IMG/VR virus record: IMGVR_UViG_3300046727_000402
Coordinates: 1-47,400 of that record
DNA: 47,400 nucleotides
Source of the DNA: a virus
Direction: 5' to 3' (one strand)
Shown here: piece after piece, positions 44,573-45,929 of the stretch
Layout of the letters: each line of letters begins with the position of its first letter
Numbering within the stretch: position 1 is the first letter of the stretch
The notes under the pieces: generated by a model
Database searches by the model: none
The model's input: the letters and a program-made list of their open reading frames with translations, nothing else
Told to the model about the DNA's origin: nothing
Program-made: the position numbers and the translations under genes

Positions 44573-44628
44573 TCCCACCGCCGTCCCTAGAGTTCCAGAC
44601 CGGCGACGCCCAGTGGCCCGCCGCATGA
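44569..44628 (+). pseudogene. Remnant of the large terminase N-terminus
   Basis: A GTG overlapping the previous stop opens a 19-codon frame that contains LEFQTGDAQW, identical to residues 5-14 of the intact large terminase, then stops after PAA. Its stop overlaps the ATG of the methyltransferase gene. The remnant is best explained as the old start of the terminase gene, cut off when the methyltransferase cassette entered; it now could serve to couple translation to the cassette. Confidence 0.85.
44588..44616 (+). repeat. 29-bp direct repeat, left border of the inserted cassette
   Basis: 27 of 29 bases match 46519-46547 (two transitions). The right copy is the beginning of the intact terminase gene. 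The 1,931-bp spacing covers the methyltransferase gene with its nested frames and two Cys-rich genes. Confidence 0.9.
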
Positions 44629-45929
44629 AAATCGGCTCGCTCTTCGCTGGCATCGGTGGCTTCGACCTTGCCGCCCGCTGGATGGGCTGGGAGACGGCCT
44701 GGTTTTCCGAGATCGACCCGTACGCCTCAGCGGTCCTTGCCAAACACTGGCCTGGAGTGCCGAATCACGGCGACATCACACGCATAGATTTTACGCAGGT
44801 TGAGCCGGTTGATCTCCTCTGTGGGGGATTCCCCTGTCAGGACATAAGCAATGCCGGCAAACGCGCGGGCATTACCGGAACACGAAGCGGTCTCTGGACC
44901 CATTTCGCCCGAGCCATTCGCGACTTACGACCCCGCTACGTCGTCGTGGAGAACGTCGCAGCGTTGCTTGGGCGGGGAATGGGACGAGTTCTCGGCGACC
45001 TTTCCGCGCTCGGGTACGATGCGGAATGGTCGGTGTTATCTGCGGCCGATGTCGGCGCTCCTCACCTCCGCGCCCGCATCTGGATTGTGGCCTATCCCAC
45101 GCACGACGGGACTGGATGGGGGCAGCAACTCACGGAACGCCGCCAAGGCGCGGGGATACTGGCCCACGCCGGACGTAGGGGTCTTCAACTTGACCGAATC
45201 CTTCGAGAGTTGGGTCGCACGCTCGGCACGAATGGGGGCGCGACACCAGCACGCACCGTTCCGACCACCGCTGGCGCTCGCAGTGAGGATATGGAGCACG
45301 CCGCGGGCGAGCGACGGGGAGAAGGGCGGACCGAATCAGAGTTTTGGAGCGGGTGGGACGCCCCTACCCGCGCAGGTTGGTGGGACACTGAACCCCCGGT
45401 GGGTCGAGTGGTTGCAAGGCTATCCGATTGGCTGGACCGACTTGACTTAGAGCTATGCCTTAGAGTAGTATGTAGGTATGCCAACCACGCCCATTGCAGT
45501 CCCGCCCAAGCCGTGCGCTTGGTGCGGGAAACTTATGGAGAGGCCGAGGTTTTCCAATGGAGAACTCGAAGCCCCAACCATGTTTGCGCGCCGCAAATTC
45601 TGCTCCCTATCCTGCGCCGCCTCGAAACCAAGTGTCAAGAAAAATTCGATGCACAAGAGGGCCCGGAAACTACGACGGGCATACTGCGAGGCGTGTCTCA
45701 TAACGAAGCGGCTTCAGGCGCACCACCTAGATCAAGATCCCACGAACAATGCGCTGAACAATATCCAGACTCTCTGCAAGAGCTGTCACGATTTCTGGCA
45801 CAATACTGCGCGCAGGCTTGGGCGGAAGGTCGCGGGGCGTATGCCGCAGATCGTGTAAGTCGCCTTAGAGGACTCGGTAACGCCATCGTTCCGGCGTGCG
45901 CGTACCGCATCTTCCAGACCCTAGGCTGA
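44625..45929 (+). CDS. DNA (cytosine-5) methyltransferase, interrupted by an HNH gene in frame
   Basis: 434 residues from ATG 44625. It would transfer methyl groups from SAM to cytosine C5 in a short target and may protect phage DNA from restriction. Motif I LFAGIGGF (6-13), catalytic Cys 71 in GGFPCQD, ENV (109-111), and HLRAR (147-151, the usual QRRxR region) are present. The variable region runs to WWDTEPPVGRVVARLSDWLDRL (near 260-281). Motifs IX/X RLRGLGNAIVP (413-423) come only after ~130 residues encoded by the HNH insertion read in this frame. Whether the enlarged protein still works is doubtful. Confidence 0.85.
   Translation: MKIGSLFAGIGGFDLAARWMGWETAWFSEIDPYASAVLAKHWPGVPNHGDITRIDFTQVEPVDLLCGGFPCQDISNAGKRAGITGTRSGLWTHFARAIRDLRPRYVVVENVAALLGRGMGRVLGDLSALGYDAEWSVLSAADVGAPHLRARIWIVAYPTHDGTGWGQQLTERRQGAGILAHAGRRGLQLDRILRELGRTLGTNGGATPARTVPTTAGARSEDMEHAAGERRGEGRTESEFWSGWDAPTRAGWWDTEPPVGRVVARLSDWLDRLDLELCLRVVCRYANHAHCSPAQAVRLVRETYGEAEVFQWRTRSPNHVCAPQILLPILRRLETKCQEKFDAQEGPETTTGILRGVSHNEAASGAPPRSRSHEQCAEQYPDSLQELSRFLAQYCAQAWAEGRGAYAADRVSRLRGLGNAIVPACAYRIFQTLG
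44851..45450 (+). CDS. Overprinted phage protein in the +1 frame of the methyltransferase gene
   Basis: 199 residues entirely inside the methyltransferase gene. It carries all landmarks of a separate phage protein family: SPEPFATYDPATSSWRTSQ, FSATFPRSGTMRNGRCY, SGLWPIP and YWPTPDV, STPRASDGEKGGPN, and the C-terminal GGTLNPRWVEWLQGYPIGWT. Members of this family often lie beside phage cytosine methyltransferases and have no known function. The frame closes 8 bases before the HNH insertion repeat. That both frames match conserved families over ~600 bases argues for true dual coding. Confidence 0.75.
   Translation: MPANARALPEHEAVSGPISPEPFATYDPATSSWRTSQRCLGGEWDEFSATFPRSGTMRNGRCYLRPMSALLTSAPASGLWPIPRTTGLDGGSNSRNAAKARGYWPTPDVGVFNLTESFESWVARSARMGARHQHAPFRPPLALAVRIWSTPRASDGEKGGPNQSFGAGGTPLPAQVGGTLNPRWVEWLQGYPIGWTDLT
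45458..45870 (+). mobile_element. HNH endonuclease insertion flanked by 8-bp repeats
   Basis: CCTTAGAG at 45458-45465 and 45863-45870 are exactly 405 bases (135 codons) apart and lie between the methyltransferase's DRL and RLRGLGN codons. Removing one repeat unit restores a continuous methyltransferase frame with CLRGLGNAIVP. Only 12 bases separate the left repeat from the HNH start codon and 4 bases separate its stop from the right repeat, leaving no room for a self-splicing intron. Confidence 0.75.
45478..45858 (+). CDS. HNH endonuclease
   Basis: 126 residues. An N-terminal zinc pair set CAWC (13-16) and CSLSC (42-46) leads to CEAC (70-73) and the catalytic HNH core LQAHHLDQDPTNNALNN with His 82/83 and Asn 91, followed by LCKSCHDFWH with metal His 104. 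HNH enzymes nick or cut DNA; this one lies in a different frame within the methyltransferase gene and is probably a free-standing mobile endonuclease that spreads by cutting uninterrupted copies of its site. Confidence 0.9.
   Translation: MPTTPIAVPPKPCAWCGKLMERPRFSNGELEAPTMFARRKFCSLSCAASKPSVKKNSMHKRARKLRRAYCEACLITKRLQAHHLDQDPTNNALNNIQTLCKSCHDFWHNTARRLGRKVAGRMPQIV

Follow-up and report, generated by a model that had tools for sequence, protein, structure and literature searches.

Nested reading frames for the two predicted subunits of a phage C5-cytosine methyltransferase

The window, by which we mean the whole 47,400-nucleotide stretch of viral DNA that was analysed, carries a gene for a C5-cytosine methyltransferase (MTase), here called alpha, and a second ORF, called beta, in the +1 frame of the same bases (Table 1). 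Alpha starts with GTG at position 44613 (an alternative ATG lies at 44625), encodes 438 aa, and matches both the Pfam family DNA_methylase (PF00145, E=7.5e-44) and phrog_363 (2.7e-85). Beta encodes 199 aa and matches PHROG_1008, a family labelled ‘DNA methyltransferase’ (E=5e-29); no family match for it was found in Pfam or NCBIfam, and no sequence match among solved structures. These results agree with an earlier note on this DNA, according to which two known phage families are encoded by the same bases. The two ORFs are present as that note describes them, but the overlap of beta with alpha is complete, such that beta is fully nested, and a third +1 ORF, for an HNH endonuclease, follows beta.

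Table 1. Features of the alpha/beta locus, in coordinates of the window
Feature	Position	Strand	Basis
Alpha, predicted large subunit of C5-MTase	44613..45929	+	Pfam PF00145, phrog_363
Alpha motifs I-VIII, catalytic and SAM-binding half	44628..45095	+	phmmer, hhalign
Shine-Dalgarno-like AGGA, 8 nt before beta ATG	44839..44842	+	sequence
TAA in beta frame, just before beta ATG	44845..44847	+	sequence
Beta, predicted small subunit, +1 frame of alpha	44851..45450	+	phrog_1008, constraint tests
Alpha variable region, reading through DNA of beta TRD and motif IX	45096..45450	+	AF2, substitution pattern
Beta motif IX (LNPRWVEWLQGYPIGWTDL)	45388..45444	+	hhalign against classical motif IX columns
HNH endonuclease ORF, 126 aa, +1 to alpha (beta's frame)	45478..45858	+	phrog_1271, 6e-13
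Alpha motif X, RLRGLGNAIVP	45861..45893	+	alignment, hhalign

The match of alpha to M.HhaI is limited to residues 15-171, corresponding to motifs I-VIII (3.5e-23, phmmer), and within these motifs alpha has PCQ at residues 74-76, ENV at 113-115 and RxR at 153-155. When the alpha family was compared by hhalign with a profile of 18 classical MTases, motifs I-VIII aligned at 2.7e-59 and a second match fell on classical motif X, whose columns G422 and N423 are almost invariant in the family alignment; between motifs VIII and X of the alpha family, nothing aligned with the classical TRD and motif IX. An AF2 model of a homologous alpha (L142) has pLDDT values of 90-98 over residues 1-165, which include most of motifs I-VIII, and over the motif X helix, and values mostly below 50 over residues 172-255, which are encoded by the DNA of beta's TRD and motif IX. 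The variable region of alpha is predicted to be disordered across the family. Foldseek aligned the alpha model with 161-162 of the 327 residues of M.HhaI, i.e. with half of this enzyme.

The best match of the beta family to the classical MTase profile is motif IX (P=6e-4, hhalign), with LNPxfVEWlMGFPxgWT of the betas aligned to RxlTxxExxRlqGfpD, and those betas that also contain motif X align over IX-X with E=2e-7. Motif IX of the window's beta reads LNPRWVEWLQGYPIGWT. The window's beta frame also retains WVEWLQGYPIGWTDL, while alpha diverges from its relatives over the same DNA, reading EPPVGRVVARLSDWLDRL where they have EPDVGRVAHGVPxRVDRL. The N-terminal motif of beta (YDPxSSSWRTSQ...FSxTWPRSGMxRNG) and its WPTP repeats matched no MTase domain. 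AF2 performed poorly on beta alone (mean pLDDT 60, pTM 0.31), and no structural match was found for this weak model. Such an outcome might be expected if beta needs a partner, yet it is not evidence for one.

The AGGA sequence upstream of the beta start codon falls within CAG GAC, two codons of the PCQD motif in the alpha frame. Across the family, Shine-Dalgarno sequences are weakly enriched at beta starts (0.195 per start codon, compared with 0.147 in a control frame). Given the TAA just upstream, the beta ORF cannot start earlier in its frame, and it is therefore either initiated internally or entered later.

A tblastn search with beta revealed relatives in 156 phage records. The earlier note had proposed asking how often both proteins are encoded by the same bases, and among the 80 viral-contig relatives that were kept, nearly all of those with an alpha match on the contig as well overlap a C5-MTase base for base in its +1 frame. 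Genome contigs with beta come from Actinomycetota, Bacillota, Bacteroidota, Pseudomonadota, Cyanobacteriota, Planctomycetota, Acidobacteriota and archaeal MAGs. Both nested coding sequences are already annotated as DNA methyltransferase in the Paenibacillus larvae phages Tadhana (gp54/gp55) and Leyra, and so the overlap has been met by annotators before. No paper on this overlap in phages, or on its generality, was found in the open-access literature searched.

An open frame might simply accompany a conserved gene, and therefore we compared the +1 frames with codon permutations in which the amino acids and codon pool of alpha were fixed, synonymous codons were shuffled, and openness was scored over 120 codons. 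A first permutation used loci selected through beta and was thus biased; it was repeated on a sample blind to beta, in which 80 viral and 80 genomic MTase loci were retrieved with an alignment that covered only the N-terminus of alpha, from motif I to SxAG. Regular interruption of the +1 frame, which the earlier note had named as the sign against its proposal, was not what this sample revealed: the frame is open in 125 of the 132 alphas that lack a classical motif IX, where 13.4 were expected. The same holds at GC<0.5 (55/58 open, 1.9 expected). Among alphas with a classical motif IX, which are of the ordinary Dcm type, only 1 of 19 is open (0.1 expected). In phage-type MTases the +1 frame stays open for ~150-430 codons, whereas 10-38 stops are typical of the +2 frame; in MTases of the ordinary Dcm type, the +1 frame contains 8-28 stops.

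The conservation of what the +1 frame encodes was assessed with a beta HMM built from other loci (the window is among its building sequences, and its own score is thus not independent). Real +1 frames score 103 bits compared with 34 for synonymously shuffled ones, and in 129 of 135 loci the real score exceeds all 20 shuffles; for MTases free of beta, real and shuffled scores do not differ. Over motifs IV-VIII the HMM gives 65 bits for real and 46 (45.7) for shuffled frames, and over the TRD and motif IX it gives 54 and 5 bits, respectively, with the real frame above every shuffle in 116/116 loci. The part of beta that lies over motifs IV-VIII is open in 120 of 121 loci (19.8 expected), a count partly conditioned on beta since these loci were picked for a long beta hit.

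These data bear on the possibility that the +1 ORF is an untranslated shadow cast by a conserved MTase protein together with GC-rich codon use. Part of the resemblance to beta is indeed shadow, because shuffled alphas still average 34 bits, and 45.7 bits in the motif IV-VIII part. However, the excess of real over shuffled scores in nearly all loci, and in every locus for the C-terminal part, and the persistence of openness at low GC make this account extremely improbable, and as a full explanation it is ruled out statistically by the permutation of synonymous codons. The view of the earlier note that chance is unlikely is thereby upheld by both the openness counts and the HMM scores.

Substitution patterns lead to the same judgement. 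In 64 disjoint pairs of relatives, four-fold sites of alpha differ at 0.54 before the overlap and at 0.39 inside it, with the lower value inside in 52 of the 64 pairs (Wilcoxon p=5e-9), which is the synonymous constraint that the earlier note had suggested looking for. MTases without beta have values of 0.62-0.64. Within the first half of the overlap, alpha position 3 is the most variable, as is expected under alpha-frame constraint, whereas in the second half the most variable is alpha position 1, which is beta position 3. Over motif IX, the last bin, the differences at alpha position 3, which is beta position 2, drop to 0.13, compared with 0.47 before the overlap. Thus, the dominant frame switches from alpha over motifs IV-VIII to beta over the TRD and motif IX, again contrary to a mere shadow, and the dual coding is confirmed as real, with purifying constraint in both frames.

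The two frames also divide the MTase motifs between them. A classical motif IX is present in only 1 of 197 alphas that have a beta, compared with 18 of 22 that do not, although these same 18 served to build the motif IX model; the other four of the 22 are cut or frame-broken contigs. In a census of 186 untruncated loci with beta, 154 have motif IX in beta and motif X in alpha, which is the window's type and resembles M.EcoHK31I. Four loci (L195, L072, L165 and L140) carry both motifs in beta in the manner of M.AquI, 17 carry both in alpha, and the remainder are mixed or other. Most of the 17 are actinophage loci whose beta does not reach motif IX; frame-shifted cases, L094 and L102 among them, make up the others. 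Because sampling began from the window's type, these proportions should not be extended to phage MTases as a whole.

Several individual loci depart from the window's organization. In the actinophage-type loci L012, L016, L017, L045, L064 and L073, a motif IX-like segment (LSPAFVEWLMGLP) and motif X are both encoded in the alpha frame, and yet a +1 beta that lacks motif IX is kept open. At L195 (2619-3923, from a Thermosynechococcus MAG), the alpha frame is broken up immediately past motif VIII, and beta contains WPTP repeats, motif IX and motif X. Mycobacterium phage Firecracker (gp6/gp5) likewise has an M.AquI-like arrangement. In L002 (Mycobacterium phage Llama gp74/gp75), alpha passes from frame 2 to 3 and beta from frame 3 to 1; this shift looks like one indel and is common to several annotated relatives, as would be expected of either decay or a frameshift site. 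In L007 (2001-3094, Gordonia phage Gudmit), an LPTP-type repeat appears in the beta frame and then, past a cysteine-rich insert, in the alpha frame, an order that suggests the exchange of a module between frames.

We consider it very probable that the locus encodes one heterodimeric C5-cytosine MTase, in which alpha is the catalytic subunit and the nested beta is the small subunit with motif IX and the recognition function. This reading is based on the motif content of each frame, the constraint in both, their co-occurrence, and the missing small domain of alpha. Alpha would supply motifs I-VIII, for SAM binding and catalysis, together with the helix of motif X. Beta would be translated from the same mRNA by internal initiation at ATG 44851, contributing motif IX and a target-recognition region that alpha lacks; that the WPTP-repeat region acts in recognition is something we infer. 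The two chains would then assemble into a working methylase, as they do for M.EcoHK31I. The enzyme of the window is probably an orphan phage modification enzyme.

Given that beta carries C-terminal motifs, a programmed +1 frameshift could instead fuse the N-terminus of alpha to the C-terminus of beta, yielding one chain rather than two subunits, and for the four M.AquI-like loci a single +1 shift would indeed produce a full MTase. In the window and in the 154 loci of its type, however, motif X resides in alpha downstream of beta's motif IX, and therefore a complete enzyme cannot be made by a single frameshift. The N-terminal part of beta over motifs IV-VIII is constrained as well (although its openness count is partly conditioned on beta), and the characterized precedents consist of two polypeptides (PMC3404938). 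We regard the frameshift as very unlikely, and reject it on the grounds that it does not fit the position of motif X.

The earlier note favoured a second family that is separate from the MTase and can persist on its own, and it offered a role in DNA modification or its control. The link to DNA modification stands. A regulator or anti-restriction protein that overprints the MTase gene and acts outside the enzyme would agree with the lack of an MTase domain match for the beta N-terminus and WPTP repeats, and also with the 17 loci that keep beta even though alpha holds motif IX-like and X segments; these loci indicate that beta does more than carry motif IX. Nevertheless, the beta C-terminus aligns to MTase motif IX, which is absent from alpha, and no intact beta without alpha was found among the relatives examined, making a regulator very unlikely. 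As candidates for a stand-alone beta family we found only L026 (3016-3696), where a beta piece cut short, with motifs IX and X, directly follows an integrase-like ORF with no alpha upstream, and L035, which begins at a contig edge; neither is a convincing stand-alone case.

Returning to the heterodimer, its origin may be pictured as a single-chain MTase that a change of frame past motif VIII divided in two. Beta would then have been extended upstream over the DNA of motifs IV-VIII, and alpha downstream across that of the TRD and motif IX until it reached motif X. Overprinting, as proposed in the earlier note, would describe the N-terminus of beta and the middle of alpha; it misfits as a simple account because the beta C-terminus is a homologue of the ancestral C-terminal half.

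The HNH ORF forms an insert in alpha, past the region equivalent to motif IX and ahead of motif X, and alpha reads through it with 0 stops (P(open)=0.001, codon permutation). Nested homologues of this HNH ORF are present in L011, L067, L070, L086, L087 and L215, and thus in only a few of ~240 loci. In all six loci that were examined, the frame leading through the HNH ORF to motif X is free of stops, with P(open) of 0.001-0.07 in five. In the part of PMC11855218 that describes it, the hidden HNH of the ShiLan type is similarly out of frame, with the methylase gene open through it, although that HNH has 195 aa compared with 126 aa in the window, and the HNH and its frame differ. The same part of that source makes no mention of the beta ORF.

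More broadly, and with rather less assurance, we favour the view that nested alpha and beta are the usual arrangement in one large branch of the C5-MTases of phages and prophages, and that an ancient overlap of 150-400 codons extends across the phages of many bacterial phyla and perhaps of archaea. If the two frames encode two halves of one enzyme, then neither frame can be lost, and if beta carries the part that determines specificity, then recognition evolves in DNA that codes in two frames. Long overlaps between genes on the same strand are regarded as rare outside small viruses. Here, well over 100 divergent loci, some with GC of 0.35-0.45, keep such an overlap open, and under our proposal they do so because both frames are needed for one enzyme. 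Since the dominant frame switches in mid-overlap, the family provides replicate cases in which to study how constraint is divided between two frames. If our reading is true, many phage ‘DNA methyltransferases’ have been annotated or cloned as alpha alone, without the recognition and motif IX part, and this could account for activity assays that failed. Beta is lost wherever an annotation pipeline does not allow genes to overlap.

To our knowledge, the nested arrangement was known before from a single bacterial enzyme, M.EcoHK31I, whose small-subunit gene is reportedly nested in the large-subunit gene in a different frame, as the predicted small-subunit ORF is in the window and its family. Most C5-MTases are monomeric, with M.AquI and M.EcoHK31I as exceptions (PMC3404938), and because these two are known two-polypeptide enzymes, the ‘new biology’ of which the earlier note spoke is too strong a term. 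A two-polypeptide C5-MTase with this motif split is an already known, under-recognized kind. What is new is its breadth, which takes in phages and prophages from seven or more bacterial phyla and probably from archaea, with beta usually unannotated. Even the PHROG_1008 label ‘DNA methyltransferase’, which includes beta, is silent on a nested second subunit.

The single-chain enzymes M.HhaI and M.HaeIII correspond to alpha in their motif I-VIII half, whereas the window's alpha is without the TRD and motif IX; motif IX is not in the same chain as motifs I-VIII, as it is in the Dcm/HhaI type. M.AquI (CYCGRG) has motifs I-VIII in its alpha and IX-X in its beta (PMC3404938), a layout that matches the four M.AquI-like loci but differs from the window, where motif X is in alpha and beta is fully nested. 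The closest parallel in motif layout is M.EcoHK31I (YGGCCR), for which PMC3404938, citing Lee et al. 1995, assigns motifs I-VIII and X to the large subunit and motif IX to the small one, as in the window. M.EcoHK31I belongs to a bacterial restriction-modification system and has a restriction partner, whereas alpha and beta form a phage locus for which no restriction enzyme was identified. The predicted TRD of M.EcoHK31I is placed in alpha (PMC3404938), whereas substitution patterns in the window's family point to beta as the constrained frame of the TRD region.
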